DNA of 64,000 bases from a bacterium (GTDB taxonomy: Bacteria > Acidobacteriota > Thermoanaerobaculia > Multivoradales > JAHEKO01): NCBI GenBank assembly GCA_024224155.1, contig JAAENP010000050.1, positions 1-64,000 on the forward strand, given 5' to 3'. This document shows, in pieces, positions 25,736 through 36,276 of this stretch. The stretch's first letter is position 1; every line of letters starts with the position of its first letter. The notes below the pieces were generated by a model, which saw nothing but the letters and a program-made list of their open reading frames with translations, ran no database searches and had not been told where the DNA came from. Position numbers and translations under genes: made by a program.

Positions 25736-27181
25736 CTACGGTCGCCAGAAGGCGCGCGTGAACAGAGCAGCGATGGCGTACACCTCCAACCTTCCGAACC
25801 ACATCAGGAGCACCATCAACAGCTTGTCGGGGGCACTGAAGAATGCGAAGTTGGCGGTCGGACCTACGGCCTTCAAGCCTGGACCGATATTGCCGATCGT
25901 GGCCGCCGAGGCGGTGGCGGTGGTGATGAGATCCGGCCCCCCGATGCTCAGGGCCAGGGCACCGAAAGCCCAGATACTGATGTAGAGGATAAAGAAGCCC
26001 GCGACGCTTCGCACCACCGTTTCTGGCACGCGCTTGCCGCCGACGAAAACCGACAGGACCGTATTGGGGCTGAAGATCAGGCGCACCTCCCGGAGCGCGG
26101 ACTTGAGACCGATCACCATGCGCATGATCTTCATGGAGCCCGCGGTCGAGCCGGCGCAGCCGCCGATGAACATCAGAGTGACCAGCATGATCCGAGACAG
26201 CACCGGCCAGGTGTCGAAATCGGCGCTTGCGTAGCCGGTGGTGGTCGACAGCGACAAGACCTGGAACAGACCATCGCGCGAAGCCTCGGTGACGCTGTCG
26301 TAGGCCCGATGGCGCATCAGGTCCCAGCTCACGATGGCCGACGCGGCCAGGGCGATGCCCACGTAGACTCGAAACTCCGCGTCTCTGAGCAGATTCCAGC
26401 CGCGGTTCTGCCAGACGCGGTAGTAGAGAGAAAAATTCGCGCCGGCGACGAACATGAACGCGATGATGATGATCTCGATCAGCGGCGAGTTGAATGCCGC
26501 CACCGAGGCGTTTCTGGGCGAAAAGCCCCCGGTGGAAAGCGTCGAGAAGGTGTGGGTCAGGGAGTCGTAGAGATCCATGCCCGCGAGGCTCAGCAGCAGC
26601 GTCTGAATCGCGGTCAGGGCAAGATAGATCTTCCACAGGATCTTGGCGGTGGTGTGGATTCGCGGTTGCAGCGCTTCGGCGGACGGGCCGGGTACCTCCA
26701 TCTTGTAGAGGAATCGCGCACCCGGTCCGAGCTCGGGCAAGAGAGCGACAAACAGAACGATGATGCCCATGCCGCCCAACCATTGGGTGAAGCAACGCCA
26801 GAACAGGATGCCGCGGCCGGCGCTTTCAATGTCGGTCAAGATGGAAGCGCCGGTGGTGGTAAAACCGGAAGCGGACTCGAACAGCGCGTCCACCGGGCTC
26901 GCGATGGTGGCGGTCATCAGGTACGGGATCGCGCCCACGATCGAAGCCAGGATCCAGCCTCCGGCGACGATCAGAATGCCCTCGCGCCGGTAGGCCTCCG
27001 AACGCTCGCCGTAGAGGATCAATGCGGCGCCGAGGACGGCCGCCAGGATTGCCGAGACCCCGAAAGCCTGGGCCGCCGCCCACTCCTTGTAGAGCAGCGA
27101 GCAGGCGAGAGGAGCCAGCTCTGCCAGCGCCACGAGCATGACCAGGCGTCCGAGAAAGAAGGCTGCGGAGCGGAAGTTCAC
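25736..27181 (-). CDS. trkH: Trk-type potassium uptake protein, membrane subunit
   Basis: Potassium translocating subunit in the inner membrane, 481 residues. The four pore loops are visible: SGFTTTGAS, STLSTGGFSPRN, SLSTTTGYASADFD and SAATIGNIGPGL. Their Gly residues form the selectivity filter. IGGCAGSTAGSMKIMR is the intramembrane loop typical of the family. The start is GTG at 27181; an upstream extension lacks coding character. It lies 10 bases after trkA, forming an operon of gate and pore. Confidence 0.93.
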   Translation of the reverse strand: MNFRSAAFFLGRLVMLVALAELAPLACSLLYKEWAAAQAFGVSAILAAVLGAALILYGERSEAYRREGILIVAGGWILASIVGAIPYLMTATIASPVDALFESASGFTTTGASILTDIESAGRGILFWRCFTQWLGGMGIIVLFVALLPELGPGARFLYKMEVPGPSAEALQPRIHTTAKILWKIYLALTAIQTLLLSLAGMDLYDSLTHTFSTLSTGGFSPRNASVAAFNSPLIEIIIIAFMFVAGANFSLYYRVWQNRGWNLLRDAEFRVYVGIALAASAIVSWDLMRHRAYDSVTEASRDGLFQVLSLSTTTGYASADFDTWPVLSRIMLVTLMFIGGCAGSTAGSMKIMRMVIGLKSALREVRLIFSPNTVLSVFVGGKRVPETVVRSVAGFFILYISIWAFGALALSIGGPDLITTATASAATIGNIGPGLKAVGPTANFAFFSAPDKLLMVLLMWFGRLEVYAIAALFTRAFWRP

Positions 27182-27191
27182 GGCGCGTAGG

Positions 27192-28568
27192 CTACGTATT
27201 GCCCTGGCCGGGGAACAGGAGGCGGACGGTTCCGAGCTCTTCTTCGCGAACAAAGAGAATCACCAGGTCGCCGACCTCGAGCCGGTCTTTGCCGCGCGGT
27301 ACGAAAACCCGATGGCCGCGAACCACGGCGCCGACGATGAAGCCTCGGGGGGCGTCCATCTCGGCCAGGGTGACTCCCGCGGCCGGGCTTGCCGGGGCCA
27401 GGCGGCGCTCGAGGACCTGCGCCGCGCCGCGCTGGAGCGAGACGATGTTGGCCGAAAAGCCGCTGTCGATGTAGTCCCGAATGCGCTCGGCGGCAACGGC
27501 GCGCGGCGAGAACACGTCGTGAAGGTTCAGCCGGCTCCAGAGTTTCGAGGTCTCGGCGCGCTGAACCAGTGCCAAGACCTGCGGCACTTCCAGCTCCTGC
27601 GCCAGCAGACAAGCCATCAGGTTGTCCTCGTCTTCGCCGGTGAGCGCGGCGAACGTGTGGGCGTCGTCGACGCGCTCGGCCTTCAAGAGCTGAAGGTCCT
27701 TGGCGTCGCCGTGGACGACCTCGAGGTCGGGAAACTCGGCGGCCAGCTGCTTAGCGCGCGGCCGGTCGTGTTCGATGATCTTGACCTTGGCGCCCACGCG
27801 CAGCAGCATTCGGGCCACTGTGTGACCGGTAGCCCCACCGCCGGCGATGACCACCGGGCCGATGACCTCGCGACCGCTGCTGACCATCTTCTCGGCCTGA
27901 CCGATGGCGTCCGTGGTGCCGAGGATCAGGGCCTCGTCGCCGGCATCGGCGCGGTCATCCCCCGAGGGAATGACGAGCTCTTCGCCGTGGAAGAAAGCCA
28001 CGACCAGGGTGTTGTTGGGCAGCTTGAGCTCGCGCAGAGGTTTCTGAGTCAACGGCGAGTCCTTGTCCAGGTGGATCTTGCGCAACTGGACTTTCCCCTC
28101 GGCGAGGTACTCGACCGCGACCGTGCTGTGGCCCCGAATCGTGTTGAGGATTCGGGTCGTCGTCAAAAGCTGGGTAGAAAGCAGTAGATCGACGCCGAAG
28201 AGCTCCTCGAACAGCCGGCGGTCGGCGATCACTTCCTGGGCCTCGCCGACCCGCACGATGGTCCGGGCCGCGCCCATATGCTTGGCGATGTGCGCCGCGG
28301 CCAGGTTGGCTTCGTCGGAAGAGGAGACCGCGATGAACAGATCCGCCGAGCCGACGTCGGCCAACGTCAGGACCGGGGGGTGGGCGCCGTTGCCTCCGAC
28401 CATGAGCACGTCGAGCTCCTCGTCGATGCGCTCGAGCTTGGCCGGATCGGTGTCGATCACAGTGATGTCATGGCCTTGCCTGGACAGGGTGCGGGCAAGG
28501 TGGAAGCCGACCTCGCCGGCGCCCATCACCACGTACCTGTGCGGTCCCTTTGCTCGGTTGGAAGCCAT
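27192..28568 (-). CDS. trkA: Trk system potassium uptake protein TrkA
   Basis: Cytoplasmic nucleotide-binding ring that gates TrkH. The 458 residues hold two RCK/TrkA-N Rossmann domains (YVVMGAGEVGFHLARTL with GxGxxG; second VVIAGGGATGHTVARMLL), each followed by a TrkA-C domain (EGKVQLRKIHLDKDSPL; DAPRGFIVGAVVRGHRVFV). The ATG at 28568 was preferred over GTG at 28583. The gene overlaps only shadow frames of the divergent efflux operon. Confidence 0.93.
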   Translation of the reverse strand: MASNRAKGPHRYVVMGAGEVGFHLARTLSRQGHDITVIDTDPAKLERIDEELDVLMVGGNGAHPPVLTLADVGSADLFIAVSSSDEANLAAAHIAKHMGAARTIVRVGEAQEVIADRRLFEELFGVDLLLSTQLLTTTRILNTIRGHSTVAVEYLAEGKVQLRKIHLDKDSPLTQKPLRELKLPNNTLVVAFFHGEELVIPSGDDRADAGDEALILGTTDAIGQAEKMVSSGREVIGPVVIAGGGATGHTVARMLLRVGAKVKIIEHDRPRAKQLAAEFPDLEVVHGDAKDLQLLKAERVDDAHTFAALTGEDEDNLMACLLAQELEVPQVLALVQRAETSKLWSRLNLHDVFSPRAVAAERIRDYIDSGFSANIVSLQRGAAQVLERRLAPASPAAGVTLAEMDAPRGFIVGAVVRGHRVFVPRGKDRLEVGDLVILFVREEELGTVRLLFPGQGNT

Positions 28569-28726
28569 TCTGGGGCGAGCCACGACGATTCGTGGCTGTG
28601 CAGATACTACCTGAGGGCGGTGAAACTAACGACGATCCGATCGAAGGAGTCGAGCGGGGTCGCGCTTCGTTGGCCGACCTGTTATCGTCCCGTTTCGACC
28701 AACCTTACGAGAGGCTCAGGACGTCT

Positions 28727-31138
28727 ATGTGTGCGAGCGGACGAGGACATCGGGCGGTCTTGATCGTGCTTGTGGCTCTGTTGGTGGCCGTTTCTGCGGC
28801 CGCGCAGCCGTTCCGAATCGGCGTGGTCGTGGACGGGCCTTGGGAGCTCAACGAAGCAGTCAAGGAGCTCACGATCCGTGAGGTCATGGCGCTGACCGAG
28901 GGCGAGTTCGAAGTCAGCTTTCCGGAAGACGCCTACTTCGTCGGCGACTGGACCCTGGCGACGGCCTTGGACAACATCAACCGCCTGCTCGATGACCCCG
29001 AGGTCGACTTGGTGATCACCTGGGGTCTGATCGCCTCGCACTCCATCTGCTGTCTGGGGGAGCTGACCAAGCCGGTGGTCGCGCCGGTGGTCATCGACGC
29101 GAGCCTCCAGGGCCTGCCCTTCGAGTTTGGCTCGAGCGGCATCCACAACCTGAGCTATGTGGCGCTACCGGACACTCTGGCGCAGGAGCTCGCGACCTTC
29201 CGGGAGATCGTTCCATTCCAGCAGGTCGGCATCCTGGCGACGGCGCCGTTGCTCGAGTCGGTCCCGGAGCTGGTCGATCGAACGCGTATCAGTCTGGCCG
29301 GAAGCGGAGTCGGTTTCGAGTACATTCCGACGAGAGAGTCGGCCGATGAAGTCTTGGCGGCGATCTCGCCCGAGACGGATGCCATCTACGCCTGGCCTCT
29401 GTTTCAGTTCTCGCAGCTCGAGTACCGGCGTCTGATCGATGGGCTGATCGAGCGCAAGCTGCCGGTGTTCTCGGGGTTGGGTGGTGGCGACGTTGAAGCC
29501 GGGATGCTGGCTTCGGCCGGCTCACCGGAATTCTTCCCGAAGCTCGCCCGAAGAGTCGCGTTGAATGTTCAACGAATTCTTCTGGGCGAGGACCCCGCGG
29601 ATATTCCGGTGAGTTTCAGCGTCCGCGACAACCTGGTGATCAACATGGCGACGGCGCGGGCTATCGACGTGTCGCCACGTTGGGAAGTTTTGATCGAAGC
29701 CGAGCTTCTGCACGCCGAGGACATCGAAGGCGCCTACGAGCTATCGCTCGACAAGGCGGTTCGGGAGGCGGTCGAGCTCAATCTGGATCTTCTGGCGCGC
29801 CGGCGCGTGGTTGCCGCCGGTGCCGAAGAGGTCGCCATCGCGCGCGCCTCGCTACGGCCCCGGCTCGACCTGTCTGCGACGTCGGTGACAATCGACGACG
29901 ACCGCGCCGCGGCGAGCCTGGGCAGCCAGTCCGAGCGGACGATCACGGGCTCGGCCGAGCTGACCCAGCTTCTGTACTCCGAGCCGGCGTTGGCCAACTT
30001 GAACATCCAGAAGCGACTTCAGGAAGGGCGCGAGTACGACCTCAAGAGCCTGAGACTCGACATCGCGCTCGACGCCGCCACGACCTATCTCAACCTCATG
30101 CGCGCCAAGGCGCTGGAACGGGTGCAGCGCAACAACGTCGAGCGCACGCGCTCCAATCTGGACCAGGCCCAGGACCGACGCAGCATCGGGGTCGCCGCGG
30201 CCGGCGAGGTTTTGCGTTGGCAAAGCGAGCGCGCAACCGCGCGGAAGTCTCTGGTCGAAGCGGTCGGCGACCGCCGCGCCGCCGAGATCGCGGTCAACCG
30301 GTTGCTGCGTCGCCGGTTGGAGTCTCTGTTCGTTACCGAGGCAGTGCCCCTGGACTCGCCGAGATTCCTGACCGGCCAGGGGCGCTTTCGGGTGTTCATC
30401 CATACGCCCAAAGGCTTCGGCGTATTTCGAGATTTCATCGTGCTCGAGGGTCTGGGGCGAGCCCCCGAGCTTCAGCTGATCGACGCGGGCATCGCGGCGC
30501 AGGAGCGGCTCGTGGCATCGGCGAAGCGCGCCTTCTGGTCCCCGACCGTGGCGCTCCAGGCCGCGCTGGACGAGATTCTGAGCCGCGGCGGGGTCGGCTC
30601 GTCCGGCTTCGAGCTTGGCGGGGCCTTGCCGTTCGAGCTGCCGCGGGCGGACGATTCGAGCTGGAGCCTGGCCGTCAACGCAACTCTGCCGCTTTTCACG
30701 GGAGGCCTGCTTGGTGCGGAGAAGATACAGGCCGAGATCGATCTCGAGCGGCTGCGGCTCGAGCGGACGGCGGCGGAGGAGCGAATCGAGCAGCGCATCA
30801 GAACGGCACTGGAAAGGACCCGAGCCTCCTTCGTCGGCATCGGTCTGGCCAACCAGGCGGCCGAGGCCGGGCGCGCCAATCTCGAGCTGGTGGAGGACTC
30901 GTACTCGCGTGGTGTCGCTTCGTTGCTCGATCTTCTCGACGCCCAGACCGCGGCACTCAACGCCGAAGAACAGGCGGCCAACGCCCTCTACGACTTCATG
31001 ATCGATTGGCTGGAGGGTCAGCGTTCCGCCAACCTGCTCGACTTCTTCTCCGACGACGACTTTCGCCGGGATTTTTTCGATCGACTGGACGCCTACGTGG
31101 CGCTGCAGGGGATCTCGTTGCCGGCGGGGACGCAGTAG
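28727..31138 (+). CDS. Fusion of ABC substrate-binding protein (ABC_sub_bind) with TolC-type outer membrane factor
   Basis: One 803-residue protein joins two exported modules. A signal peptide (VLIVLVALLVAVSAAAQP) is followed by a PF04392-like periplasmic binding domain (about residues 25-340; DLVITWGLIASHSICCLGEL, KPVVAPVVIDASLQG, YAWPLFQFSQLEYRRLIDGL). From residue 345 on it is a TolC/OMF protein with two long coiled repeats (REAVELNLDLLARRRVV, ALDAATTYLNLMRAKALERV, and SYSRGVASLLDLLDAQTAAL at the end). The membrane fusion protein and RND pump follow, so this supplies the exit duct. The binding domain may sample ligand for the pump; that is inference. The ATG at 28727 is chosen for the signal peptide. 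Confidence 0.85.
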   Translation: MCASGRGHRAVLIVLVALLVAVSAAAQPFRIGVVVDGPWELNEAVKELTIREVMALTEGEFEVSFPEDAYFVGDWTLATALDNINRLLDDPEVDLVITWGLIASHSICCLGELTKPVVAPVVIDASLQGLPFEFGSSGIHNLSYVALPDTLAQELATFREIVPFQQVGILATAPLLESVPELVDRTRISLAGSGVGFEYIPTRESADEVLAAISPETDAIYAWPLFQFSQLEYRRLIDGLIERKLPVFSGLGGGDVEAGMLASAGSPEFFPKLARRVALNVQRILLGEDPADIPVSFSVRDNLVINMATARAIDVSPRWEVLIEAELLHAEDIEGAYELSLDKAVREAVELNLDLLARRRVVAAGAEEVAIARASLRPRLDLSATSVTIDDDRAAASLGSQSERTITGSAELTQLLYSEPALANLNIQKRLQEGREYDLKSLRLDIALDAATTYLNLMRAKALERVQRNNVERTRSNLDQAQDRRSIGVAAAGEVLRWQSERATARKSLVEAVGDRRAAEIAVNRLLRRRLESLFVTEAVPLDSPRFLTGQGRFRVFIHTPKGFGVFRDFIVLEGLGRAPELQLIDAGIAAQERLVASAKRAFWSPTVALQAALDEILSRGGVGSSGFELGGALPFELPRADDSSWSLAVNATLPLFTGGLLGAEKIQAEIDLERLRLERTAAEERIEQRIRTALERTRASFVGIGLANQAAEAGRANLELVEDSYSRGVASLLDLLDAQTAALNAEEQAANALYDFMIDWLEGQRSANLLDFFSDDDFRRDFFDRLDAYVALQGISLPAGTQ

Positions 31139-31213
31139 GCAACTGCACCGAGGAAACACCATGACGATGTTGAAAGATGGGGATACTCACTCGCTCAAGA
31201 CCGGTCGGGAGGA

Positions 31214-31288
31214 TGTAGCGGTCGACCTCCGTGTCGACCGGAATCCACCGCCCGGAAGGGACGGTCGAGACAGAGCTCGACCGCTACA
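31214..31288. repeat. Dispersed palindromic repeat, copy 2 (full-length, 75 bp)
   Basis: TGTAGCGGTCGACCTCCGTG plus TCGACCG at the left is inverted at the right as CGGTCGAGACAGAGCTCGAC plus CGCTACA (24 of 27 positions pair). The body between is about 20 bases. It ends one base before the preferred start codon of the membrane fusion protein. Confidence 0.8.
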
Positions 31289-31289
31289 A

Positions 31290-32402
31290 ATGTTCACGGA
31301 GCTAGGCGTCATAGCTCTAGCGGCTGTCGCGACGCTCCTTATCGCCTGCCAGGAGCCGCCACCGGTCGAGACCGTTCTGCGTCCGGTTCGCTACGAACAG
31401 GTCTCGACCAGCCAGGAAGCGCGGCTGCGGACATTCGCCGGAGTCGCTCGGGCGGGTGTCGAGTCGAACTTGAGCTTCCGAGTCGCCGGTACGGTAGATC
31501 GGGTCGCGGTTACAGTCGGTCAGCAGGTGCGCCGCGGTCAGCTTCTGGCGCGCATGGACCCGACCGACTACGAGCTAAGAGTCCAGGAAGCGGTGGCGGG
31601 CCTTGCTCAAGCCGAGGCGGCTTCGCGAAACGCCGAAGCCGACTACGAGCGCGTGCGCGGCCTTTACGAAAACAACAACGCCTCCCGGCGCGAGCTCGAT
31701 GGCGCCCGGGCCAGCAGCGAGTCCAGCCTCGCGCAAGTACAGGCGGCCCAGAAGCGGCTCGAGCAGGCCCGCCAGCAGGTTTCCTACGCCACTCTGCGGG
31801 CTCCGGTCGGCGGCACGGTCGCGGCGGTCAATGTCGAGGTCAACGAGAACGTCAACGCCGGCCAGAAGGTCATTCTCCTGACCGCGGGCTCTGATACCGA
31901 GGTCGAGGTGGCTCTGCCCGAGGCGGTGATCTCCGCCGTCGAGCTCGGACAGACCGTCGAAGTGCGCTTCGACGCTTTGCCCGGACGGACCTTTGACGCC
32001 CAAGTCACCGAGGCGGGCGTCGCGGCGGTGGGCACCGCGACCACCTTCCCGGTTACGGCCCAACTCACGGAATCCGATCCGGATATCCGCTCCGGCATGG
32101 CTGCCGAGGTCGCTTTCCGGTTTTCGACCGCGGCAACTCAGGGACGGCTGCTGGTGTCACCGGTCGCGGTCGGCGAGGATCGGGAGGGGCGGTTCGTCTT
32201 CGTCCTGAAGCTCGCACAGAAGGGGAGCGAGGCGGAAACTCTCACTGCTCGAGTGGAACGTCGTGCGGTGACCATAGGCGAGCTCACCGGTGACGGGCTG
32301 GAGATCCGAAGCGGTCTCGCGGACGGTGAGTTGGTGGTCACCGCCGGTGTGCGCCGGCTGTCGGACGGAGAGCAGGTCAAGGTCGTGGAGATCCCTTCGT
32401 GA
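31290..32402 (+). CDS. RND efflux membrane fusion (adaptor) lipoprotein
   Basis: Periplasmic adaptor joining the RND pump to the TolC-type protein. From ATG at 31290 the product has 370 residues and begins with a lipoprotein signal (LGVIALAAVATLLIACQ). The barrel-sandwich halves are SFRVAGTVDRVAVTVGQQVR and LRAPVGGTVAAVNVEVNEN, with a long coiled-coil hairpin between them (about 75-150) and a beta-barrel and membrane-proximal domain after. ATG at 31161 opens the same frame with a good ribosome site, but the added 43 residues are encoded mostly by the dispersed repeat, so I prefer the later start. The stop overlaps the pump start by 4 bases. Confidence 0.85.
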   Translation: MFTELGVIALAAVATLLIACQEPPPVETVLRPVRYEQVSTSQEARLRTFAGVARAGVESNLSFRVAGTVDRVAVTVGQQVRRGQLLARMDPTDYELRVQEAVAGLAQAEAASRNAEADYERVRGLYENNNASRRELDGARASSESSLAQVQAAQKRLEQARQQVSYATLRAPVGGTVAAVNVEVNENVNAGQKVILLTAGSDTEVEVALPEAVISAVELGQTVEVRFDALPGRTFDAQVTEAGVAAVGTATTFPVTAQLTESDPDIRSGMAAEVAFRFSTAATQGRLLVSPVAVGEDREGRFVFVLKLAQKGSEAETLTARVERRAVTIGELTGDGLEIRSGLADGELVVTAGVRRLSDGEQVKVVEIPS

Positions 32403-35400
32403 ATCTGACCCGAGCGGCGATCGAGAAGAACCGCATCACGTTCGTGGTGCTGGCGGTGCTCGCGGTAGCGGGCATCCAGGCCTATCTCGGGATGCCACAG
32501 TCGGAAGACCCCGGGTTCACCATCCGCACCGCGATGGTGATCACTTACTTTCCGGGAGCCAGTCCCGAGCGCGTCGAGCAGCTGGTCACCGACAAGCTGG
32601 AGAAGGCGATTCAGGAGATTCCCCAGGTCGACGTAATCAACAGCCAGTCCAAGAACGGAGTCTCGATCATCATCGTCGACATTCAAGAACGCTACAAGGT
32701 GATGCGGCCGATCTGGGACGACCTGAGGCGCAAGGTCAGCCGGGCCGCGGGCGAGCTCCCGGATGGCGTCATCGGGCCCAATGTCAACGACGAATTCGGT
32801 GACGTGTTCGGCACGGTGGTCAACCTGACCGGCGACGGCTACAGCTACGCCGAGATCAAAGACGTCGCCGACGAGGTGCGCGACGAGCTCCTGCTCATCG
32901 AGGAGGTCGCCAAGGTCGAGATCCACGGCGAGCAGGAAGAGCGGGTCTTTGTCGAGTACAACAACGCCCGGCTGGCCGAGTTGGGTCTGTCGCCGGGCCA
33001 GCTCAAGAACATTCTCGAGAGCCGCAACATCATCAACCCCGGCGGCCAGGTTCGGACCCTGAACGAGGAGATCGTTCTCGAGCCGTCAGGCAACTTCGAG
33101 TCGGTCGCCGACCTGGCGCGCACCATCATCAGCCTGCCGGGTCGCGACGAGTTGATCTATCTCGAGGATGTCGCCGAGATCAGCCGTGGCTACGTCGATC
33201 CGCCGAGTCGCAAGATGCGAGCCAGCGGCGAACCGGGTCTGGCGCTGGCGGTTTCGATGCGCGAGGGCGGCAATATTCTGGTTCTCGGCGAGGAGGTCAA
33301 GAAGACCATCGCCCATGCCCAGGAAAGCTATCCGCACGGCGTCGAATTCGAGTTCACCCAGTTTCAGGCCGGCGAGGTCGAGAAGAAGGTCGATGGCTTC
33401 GTCGGCAATCTGGTGCAGGCCGTGGCCATCGTGATGCTGGTGATGTTGGCGAGCCTGGGGCTTCGCACCGGACTGGTCGTGGCCAGCCTGATCCCGATGG
33501 CGATCGTCATGGCTTTCATATTCATGTCTTTGTTCGACGTCGGCATCAACACGATGTCGCTGGCGGCGCTGATGATCGCTCTCGGGCTGCTGGTCGACAA
33601 CGCCATCGTCATGTCGGAATCGATCATGGTGCAGATCTCCGAGGGGAAACCGCCGAAGGAGGCCGCTATCGCTGCGGCCGCCGAGCTCAAGACCCCGCTC
33701 CTGGTGTCGTCGTTGACGACCGCGGCCGCCTTCCTGCCGATCTACCTGGCGAAGTCGGCGGTGGGTGAGTACACGGCGGCGCTGTTTCAGGTGGTAACGA
33801 TCACCCTGCTGTGCTCATGGGTTTTGGCCCTGACCATGATTCCGCTCTTTTGCGTCATGTTTCTCAAGGTGAAGCCGAGAGGGGAAGGTGCCTTCGACAC
33901 ACCGTTCTATAGGGGATATCGGTCGGGGCTGCTGGCGAGTCTGCGCCGGCCCTGGGTGTCGGTCGCGGTGGTTGCGTTGGTCTTCTTCGGTGTTATGCAG
34001 CTCTTCGGTCTGGTGCCGGCAATCTTCTTCCCTCCCAACGAGCGGCCGTCGTTGACAGCCGAGCTGTTCTTGCCGACCGGGACGCCGTTGGCGCGTACGG
34101 AGGAAGTGGTCCTCGAGGTCGAGACGTTCATCAAGTACAACCTGGTTGCCACGCCCGAGGAGATCGAGGTCGGAGAGGACGGGGTCACCAACTGGGCGAC
34201 CTTCATCGGCGAGGGCGCCCCGCGCTTCTTTCTTTCCTACGGCCCCGAGCAGGCCAGTCCGGAGTACGCCATCCTGGTGATCAATGCCTCATCGCGGGAG
34301 TACATCGACGTTGCGGTCGAGAAGCTCCGTGTCTTCTGCCGCCGGTTTCCGGGACTCAAGGCCAAGATCGAGCCGCTCCCCTTGGGACCCCCAGCGGGCG
34401 ATCCGATCGAGGTTCGGGTGTCGGGGCGAGACGCCGACCTGATCTTCCGCCTGGTCGATCAGGTCAAGAGCCGCCTCGTCGAAGTGGAGGGACCGCGAAA
34501 CATCTCCGATGACTGGGGCGCGCGTTCGAAAAAACTGTTGGTCAAGATCAACCAGGCCCGGGCACAGCGCGCGGGTGTTACCAATCAGGATGTCGCGGTT
34601 TCGCTGCAGACGGTGCTCTCGGGGATCACCACCACCGAGTACCGCGAGGCCGACAAGATCATCCCGGTGACTCTGCGCTCGGTCGGCGCCGACCGGCTGA
34701 ACCTGCAGAAGCTGGACAGCCTGAACGTGTTCTCGCAGGCGACCGGCCTTTCGGTTCCACTCAAGCAGGTAGCCGACCTGGAAGTGGCCTGGCAGCCGGC
34801 CAACATCCGCCGCCGAGATCGGCTGCGGACGGTTACCGTTGCCACCGATCTCGAGCCGGGTTTCACCGCGATCGCGGTCAACGAGGAGTTGGTGCCGCTT
34901 CTCGATCAGGACAGTGCCAGCTGGCCCCTGGGCTATTCCTACGAGATCGGTGGTGAGGACGAAGCTTCGCAGGAAGCCAACGCTTCGATCGGCGAGCAGC
35001 TTCCGGTCGCGGCGCTCATCATCATTCTGCTCCTGGTGAGCCAGTTCAACTCGATTCGCCGACCGCTGATCATCCTCATCACGATTCCGTTGGGCCTGAT
35101 CGGAGTGGTGATCGGTCTCCTGGTCATGCGCTCCTACTTCGGCTTCATGACGTTGCTGGGCATCGTGTCGCTGGCCGGCATCGTCATCAACAACGCCATT
35201 GTGTTGCTTGACCGGATCGAGATCGAGATCTCCGAGAATGGCCTCACGCCGCGGCGAGCCATTGTCGAGTCGGCCCAGCGGCGGATGCGTCCGATTCTCT
35301 TGACGACGTTCACCACGCTGGGCGGCCTGATCCCCCTATACATCGGCGGCGGCGTCATGTACCGACCGATGGCGGTCGCGATCATGTTCGGGCTGGTCTT

Positions 35401-35482
35401 CGCCACCGCGTTGACACTGGGCGTCGTCCCGATTCTCTACTCGCTGTTCTTCAAGGTCCGCTTCAAGGACTTCGTATATTGA
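32399..35482 (+). CDS. RND efflux transporter permease (AcrB/HAE1 family)
   Basis: Proton-driven inner membrane pump, 1027 residues. It has 12 membrane segments and two large periplasmic loops. AALMIALGLLVDNAIVMSES holds the conserved Asp-Asn of helix 4 used in proton relay; the second half repeats the plan (GIVSLAGIVINNAIVLLDRI). GEQLPVAALIIILLLVSQF is helix 8. The start is GTG at 32399, overlapping the adaptor stop by 4 bases. The sequence lacks obvious heavy-metal (HME) signatures; substrates are unknown. Confidence 0.9.
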   Translation: MNLTRAAIEKNRITFVVLAVLAVAGIQAYLGMPQSEDPGFTIRTAMVITYFPGASPERVEQLVTDKLEKAIQEIPQVDVINSQSKNGVSIIIVDIQERYKVMRPIWDDLRRKVSRAAGELPDGVIGPNVNDEFGDVFGTVVNLTGDGYSYAEIKDVADEVRDELLLIEEVAKVEIHGEQEERVFVEYNNARLAELGLSPGQLKNILESRNIINPGGQVRTLNEEIVLEPSGNFESVADLARTIISLPGRDELIYLEDVAEISRGYVDPPSRKMRASGEPGLALAVSMREGGNILVLGEEVKKTIAHAQESYPHGVEFEFTQFQAGEVEKKVDGFVGNLVQAVAIVMLVMLASLGLRTGLVVASLIPMAIVMAFIFMSLFDVGINTMSLAALMIALGLLVDNAIVMSESIMVQISEGKPPKEAAIAAAAELKTPLLVSSLTTAAAFLPIYLAKSAVGEYTAALFQVVTITLLCSWVLALTMIPLFCVMFLKVKPRGEGAFDTPFYRGYRSGLLASLRRPWVSVAVVALVFFGVMQLFGLVPAIFFPPNERPSLTAELFLPTGTPLARTEEVVLEVETFIKYNLVATPEEIEVGEDGVTNWATFIGEGAPRFFLSYGPEQASPEYAILVINASSREYIDVAVEKLRVFCRRFPGLKAKIEPLPLGPPAGDPIEVRVSGRDADLIFRLVDQVKSRLVEVEGPRNISDDWGARSKKLLVKINQARAQRAGVTNQDVAVSLQTVLSGITTTEYREADKIIPVTLRSVGADRLNLQKLDSLNVFSQATGLSVPLKQVADLEVAWQPANIRRRDRLRTVTVATDLEPGFTAIAVNEELVPLLDQDSASWPLGYSYEIGGEDEASQEANASIGEQLPVAALIIILLLVSQFNSIRRPLIILITIPLGLIGVVIGLLVMRSYFGFMTLLGIVSLAGIVINNAIVLLDRIEIEISENGLTPRRAIVESAQRRMRPILLTTFTTLGGLIPLYIGGGVMYRPMAVAIMFGLVFATALTLGVVPILYSLFFKVRFKDFVY

Positions 35483-35571: not shown

Positions 35572-36276
35572 ATGTTCAAGCGCCTGCTAGCACCCGGCAA
35601 GCTGCTGCCCTTGTTGATCTCACTGGTGGCGCTCTTCGTGCTATACCCGATCATGGTGGAGCTCGAGCGGGTGCGATTCTTTCGCTTTGGCATGGTCATG
35701 GTGCTGATCCTTGCCGTTTACTCCATCGGTGGAAGCCGGTGGCATCTGTGGGCGGCGGCTCTTCTCGGTGCACCAGCCGGAGTTGCTCAGATCGCGGCGT
35801 TCGCCGAACCGCAGGGATCGGCGCCGCTGGTCGCAACCATGCTCGGACTCGCTTTCTTGATCTTCACGACCGTGGTTGTTTTCACGTCGGTTCTGAGATC
35901 CGGCCCGGTGACCGGCGACAAGATCGCCGGTGCGATCGCCGTCTATCTCTTACTGGGCCTGATCTGGGCGCTCCTCTACGGCCTTGTGGCAATTATCGAT
36001 CCGGCGTCGTTTCGATTGCCGGCCGACCTGGTCTTCGATACGGGAATACCGGGTAGCGAGTACGCTTTCATCTATTACAGCTTCGTCACCTTGACGACAC
36101 TCGGCTACGGCGAGATCTCACCGGCAAATCACTGGAGCCAGACGTTTGCCTGGATGGAGGCCGTCACCGGGCAACTGTTTTTGGCGATACTCATCGCTCG
36201 GATGGTCGGGCTGCACATTGCTCATCCGGGAGTTCTGAAGGAAACACGACGAACTGTTAGGAGGCTCGCGGAATGA
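35572..36276 (+). CDS. Ion-channel (potassium-channel-type) membrane protein
   Basis: The product has 234 residues and about six hydrophobic segments. The last third has the pore plan: helix, YYSFVTLTTLGYGEISPANH with the TLGYGE filter, and the closing helix MEAVTGQLFLAILIARMVG. The N-terminal segments (LLPLLISLVALFVLYPIMV and others) make it more than a two-helix channel. No RCK domain is attached, but trkA lies about 7 kb away. The last four bases overlap the start of the decayed gene downstream. Confidence 0.8.
   Translation: MFKRLLAPGKLLPLLISLVALFVLYPIMVELERVRFFRFGMVMVLILAVYSIGGSRWHLWAAALLGAPAGVAQIAAFAEPQGSAPLVATMLGLAFLIFTTVVVFTSVLRSGPVTGDKIAGAIAVYLLLGLIWALLYGLVAIIDPASFRLPADLVFDTGIPGSEYAFIYYSFVTLTTLGYGEISPANHWSQTFAWMEAVTGQLFLAILIARMVGLHIAHPGVLKETRRTVRRLAE

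Follow-up and report, generated by a model that had tools for sequence, protein, structure and literature searches.

A class I substrate-binding domain fused to a TolC-type outer-membrane duct in Acidobacteriota and beyond

Efflux ducts of the outer membrane are usually seen as passive exits that are opened by their adaptor. In the window studied here (the whole 64,000-nucleotide stretch of bacterial DNA that was analysed), one gene of an efflux operon joins such a duct to a domain of a family of ABC substrate-binding proteins, which ordinarily capture nutrients for uptake. Is this truly a single protein, and what would a binding domain do on an exit duct?

One reading frame from signal peptide to duct

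The gene is a single open frame on the forward strand (window positions 28727-31138; 803 codons and a stop), giving one protein of 803 amino acids. Behind its signal peptide lies a class I substrate-binding domain (PF04392), which a short linker connects to a complete TolC-type duct (two PF02321 matches). The parts of the gene and the two pump genes that follow it are listed here with the evidence for each.

28718..28721, + strand: AGGA, possibly the ribosome-binding site, 5 bases upstream of the start codon (ATG at 28727; suggested by the sequence)
28727..28804, + strand: predicted signal peptide, residues 1-26 (from composition, by eye)
28805..29722, + strand: class I (PF04392-type) substrate-binding domain, residues 27-332 (Pfam; profile of 22 relatives)
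29711..29740, + strand: joint or linker, residues 329-338 (HAEDIEGAYE), leading on to the first TolC helix (23 aligned fused proteins)
29738..31138, + strand: TolC-type outer-membrane duct, residues 338-803 (PF02321 twice; TolC chains in the PDB)
31161..32402, + strand: RND periplasmic adaptor, or membrane fusion protein (TIGR01730, 233.7 bits against a cut-off of 94.9; PF16576)
32399..35482, + strand: RND permease (PF00873, E = 2e-157; nearest solved relatives MexK and TriC)

Both halves were recognized in the domain search that an earlier note on this DNA had proposed. PF04392 (ABC_sub_bind) matched residues 78-325 (E = 5.5e-7), scoring 29.6 bits with the full-length protein and 32.5 bits with the binding domain alone against a gathering score of 25.9, and PF02321 (OEP) matched twice (E = 1.8e-35, 122.9 bits, above the gathering score). 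Two OEP repeats exceeded the gathering score in all 22 relatives as well. The duct aligned with TolC chains in the PDB over residues 364-765, and an Asp like those of the TolC gate was found at residue 738 in 20 of 22 members and at residue 735 in 14 of 22; against TIGR01844 (type I secretion TolC) it scored 106.7 bits, below the curated cut-off of 225.15. A structure model of the full-length fusion, made from an alignment of only two rows, reached a pLDDT of 36.

Read by eye, the export signal consists of MCASGRGHRAVLIVLVALLVAVSAAA followed by Q (residues 1 to about 26), with a possible signal peptidase I cleavage site after VSAAA and no lipobox. It is the sole signal seen: inspection by eye found none before the duct part, and the joint of the window protein (residues 325-340) is free of hydrophobic stretches, which means that a duct started on its own would be left without a signal. 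The earlier note's claims that the binding domain and the duct share one frame and one signal peptide, and that the domain lies on the periplasmic side, are thus borne out.

A gap of 22 bases separates the fused gene from the adaptor gene downstream, and the latter shares 4 bases with the RND gene, so that the adaptor and RND permease of a tripartite RND system lie within the operon of the fused duct. The pump's closest matches among solved structures were MexK (20yy/9xwg, 8e-189) and TriC (6vej, 7e-178). In Pseudomonas aeruginosa, MexJK and TriABC use the TolC homologue OpmH. There are papers in which all three are considered together. An adaptor and a pump downstream had been predicted in the same note, and the same context recurs in relatives: the adaptor gene adjoins the fused gene in most, with a different gene order at two loci (L050 and L051). 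Regulators beside the operon are ordinary, with TetR at L041 and in Sulfuricurvum and Rrf2 at L045. Genes for TrkH and TrkA potassium uptake lie just upstream of the window operon (25736-28583, - strand), and an Ion_trans_2 channel gene (35572-36276, + strand) begins 90 bases past the RND gene, placing potassium-handling genes on both sides; upstream frames at L001 appear by eye, from their translated starts, to be the same two Trk genes.

Recurrence and descent of the fusion

Using tblastn, we found the same joint, with one frame covering both domains, in 22 of 396 sampled Acidobacteriota genomes from 14 families (the copy in G090 is truncated where its contig stops). When the binding domain by itself was used for a profile search, the same 22 genomes were returned and, at that strength, only three other proteins, all fusions to BON domains (SBP-BON proteins). 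A separate MAG (L001) carries the fusion at 66% identity. Across the 23 aligned fused proteins, the joint is of constant length (42-44 residues between two conserved flanking sites in 23 of 23), and none has a hydrophobic stretch there. This recurrence, with two of the 22 carrier genomes being single-contig assemblies, excludes chance, a missed stop and mis-assembly.

That the frame hides two separately translated proteins, or arose from a missed stop or an assembly artefact, is exceedingly improbable: in its favour there is solely the fact that both domains usually occur apart, whereas at 23 independent loci, among them the plasmid of a named cultured strain and the single-contig genomes, the frame runs through the joint uninterrupted, the joint spacing is conserved and the duct part has no signal peptide of its own. 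Two genes with a missed stop or an internal start, the outcome that the earlier note had set against its own reading, are not the case given 23 continuous homologues. Its description of such a fusion as unusual for efflux systems is fair, yet the fusion is a recurrent family rather than a one-off.

Beyond Acidobacteriota, where our sampling was sparse, the fusion was found at least on a plasmid of Sulfuricurvum kujiense (Campylobacterota; 31% identity over 92%). Two plasmids of Cetobacterium somerae (Fusobacteriota) encode TolC proteins of 726 and 723 residues (L092:8479-10659 and L093:8362-10533) with an N-domain of roughly 250 residues. The family profile recognizes one of these N-domains and the other barely, and Pfam sees OEP only; they seem to be a shortened, diverged form of the binding domain. 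No fusion was found in viral contigs and phages. Collectively, these findings show a genuine fusion of long standing that has been conserved across three phyla or more.

In a tree of the ducts, a quick one with several long branches, the fused ducts of the three phyla and one unfused relative (L060) group together (26 rows, SH-aLRT 100). A single clade of all fused ducts was not rejected (p-AU 0.55), a value compatible with one origin that gives no proof of it. The Sulfuricurvum protein falls inside the main Acidobacteriota group (support 97 for the 21-row group and 85 for the inner branch), a placement as would be expected after gene transfer. Among ducts that lack the fusion, this relative (L060:143-1699, - strand) stands closest to the fused family; it has a signal peptide and adjoins an HlyD-type adaptor, with a frame resembling, by eye, a FUSC-type exporter nearby on the opposite strand; it is either ancestor-like or a duct that has lost the domain.

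The pump partners differ among the relatives. Those of the RND type fall into two groups (52-88% and 25-38% identity to the window's pump), and the Sulfuricurvum plasmid has no RND pump at the locus, its partners being an HlyD adaptor, an RbbA-type ABC ATPase-permease and an ABC-2 permease (L032:7902-15158, where the fused duct and the RbbA-type ABC exporter are accompanied by two TetR genes). The binding domain therefore accompanies the duct rather than any one pump, being present beside two RND groups and one ABC exporter. The two halves also diverge in step (their identities correlate with r = 0.74), and dN/dS was 0.17-0.35 for the binding domain and 0.18-0.33 for the duct where measurable. 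The binding domain is thus under purifying selection and, as its in-step divergence with the duct also shows, maintained for a function.

A binding fold with a replaced pocket

The profile of 22 relatives matched solved PF04392 proteins (3lkv, E = 1.1e-12; 3lft, 6.2e-8; 6hni, 4.8e-7), and 9 of the 22 relatives matched PF04392 itself at E 0.01. A model of the binding domain, again from a two-row alignment (pLDDT 55), found 3lft near background level (Z 8.0, 96 residues, rmsd 2.7); the Foldseek and VIA-align matches of this weak model, likewise near background, include many class I binding folds.

The three solved proteins, 3lkv (VC_1101), 3lft (SP1069/TrpX) and 6hni (CD0873), bind Phe, Trp and Tyr (PMC6816091), and the amino-acid-binding residues of Streptococcus suis TrpX are T108, A127, T129, D152 and N233 (PMC9382623). 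In all three profile alignments, their counterparts in the window protein are L101, V121, I123, L147 and Q227. As a check on spacing, the same binding residues were found in each solved chain, with Ser in place of T129 in 6hni. The set T, A, T/S, D, N that TrpX and CD0873 use for amino acids is thus absent, with five of five positions replaced, and, to the extent that the alignment is reliable, an amino acid bound in the known manner is excluded. Among 22 members, four of the five pocket columns are hydrophobic in 17-22, and in the fifth Arg, Gln or His predominate. These columns are no more conserved than the remainder of the domain (mean entropy 2.43 versus 2.04 bits), which fits either differing ligands or none.

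Two controls bear on how this loss is to be read. Free PF04392 proteins of Acidobacteriota also vary at the five sites, so the hydrophobic replacements are no special evidence for a hydrophobic ligand, and the sibling SBP-BON proteins show the same replacements as the fused proteins; the loss is therefore a feature of the entire clade rather than of the fusion only. In the beta1-loop, Asp36 is kept in 22 and Gly37 in 21 of 23 proteins, a pattern suggesting that a cleft function may be retained. A Cys-Cys pair at residues 108-109 of the binding domain is common to the window protein, L001 and L040 and is not family-wide. The SBP-BON proteins, in which the same branch of the domain lacks a duct and is fused to BON domains (PF04972; L054:1438-3072, L055:2191-3840 and L094:2545-4194, all on the - strand), come from two genomes within a single Acidobacteriota family, and one of these genomes (G104) has the fused duct as well; the SBP-BON proteins suggest a second envelope use of the domain.

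A role for the domain at the duct

An importer's binding protein was rejected as an explanation: the gene lies beside those for an adaptor and an RND pump, with no importer genes next to it, and the fusion holds the sole PF04392 domain in the window's genome. In TolC, the N-terminal helix extends from the equator up to the outer membrane, and this is where TolC is bound by the lipoprotein YbjP, which was reported to have no allosteric or signalling role; the equatorial ring of TolC has been proposed to touch peptidoglycan (PMC13082787). In the fusion, the joint directly enters the part that aligns with this first helix, and since the helix starts at the equator, three binding domains would be expected around the equator of the duct.

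Our preferred reading, held tentatively, is that the domain is an accessory tethered to the duct of a MexK/TriC-like RND efflux pump, with a ligand or partner that is not an amino acid. After export, the duct would trimerize and hold three binding domains round its equatorial belt in the periplasm; by binding some non-amino-acid compound or partner in the periplasm, these would tune the assembly, opening or placement of the duct. The domain serves no importer and would probably not pass substrate directly to the inner-membrane pump. The unconserved pocket columns, the weakly recognizable Cetobacterium N-domain and the YbjP precedent without signalling all count against this reading. Its more specific form, in which the equatorial class I domains bind a periplasmic compound and so switch duct assembly or opening whatever pump is attached, is rather doubtful.

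Almost as likely as a tethered accessory is a structural collar: having lost ligand binding, the domain would serve at the duct's equator as a spacer, a stabilizer or a contact to the cell wall, much as an integral YbjP would. It would account for the replacement of all five canonical residues, the lack of special conservation in the pocket and the erosion of the Cetobacterium N-domain, and it has a parallel in YbjP, which sits at the equator without a signalling role, and in the proposed contact of the equatorial ring with peptidoglycan (PMC13082787). However, the pocket replacements are mostly hydrophobic rather than random, Asp36-Gly37 is kept, and a class I binding fold is elaborate for such a task.

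Less favoured, and in our view unlikely, is substrate capture and hand-off, in which the domain would catch substrate of the pump in the periplasm and pass it on to the adaptor or the RND pump. The domain is encoded together with both, hydrophobic pocket positions would suit drug-like substrates, and there is precedent for a binding domain joined to an efflux component in the CusF-CusB fusion of 22 organisms (PMC3548706). Yet the domain is kept with the duct even where the pump is an ABC exporter, and TolC geometry would place it near the equator, far from the RND substrate entrance. The predicted place thus speaks against the direct loading that the earlier note had entertained; sensing of substrate, its other suggestion, is possible.

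Returning to the tethered accessory, the conservation of a ligand-binding fold on the duct across different inner-membrane pumps suggests that, in some cases, a regulatory or placing module belongs to the duct itself. If the duct is indeed switched by a ligand, export would be under ligand control at the outer-membrane side, which raises a testable question: is efflux controlled by a ligand at the duct? Both halves belong to known families, and databases name such proteins 'TolC family protein' or 'ABC transporter substrate binding protein'; we found no description of the joint PF04392-duct architecture in the literature searched, which included few subscription journals and preprints.

Four known systems come closest. 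Like TolC/OpmH-type factors (PF02321), the window duct has two OEP repeats, gate-like Asp at 735/738 and an adjoining adaptor and MexK/TriC-like RND pump, but it differs from them in carrying about 300 extra periplasmic residues in front and in being the first gene of its own pump operon. The binding domain resembles VC_1101 (3lkv), SP1069/TrpX (3lft) and CD0873 (6hni) by a profile match over most of its length, the solved proteins having the class I fold; these are free or lipid-anchored, whereas the window domain is fused to an exit duct. CusB-CusF likewise joins a periplasmic substrate-carrier domain to one RND efflux part (PMC3548706), although there a metal chaperone sits on the adaptor and here a class I binding domain sits on the duct. 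YbjP-TolC shares the accessory at the TolC equator along the N-terminal helix (PMC13082787), a place that is predicted for the window fusion, but YbjP is a separate lipoprotein of a different fold (DUF3828).
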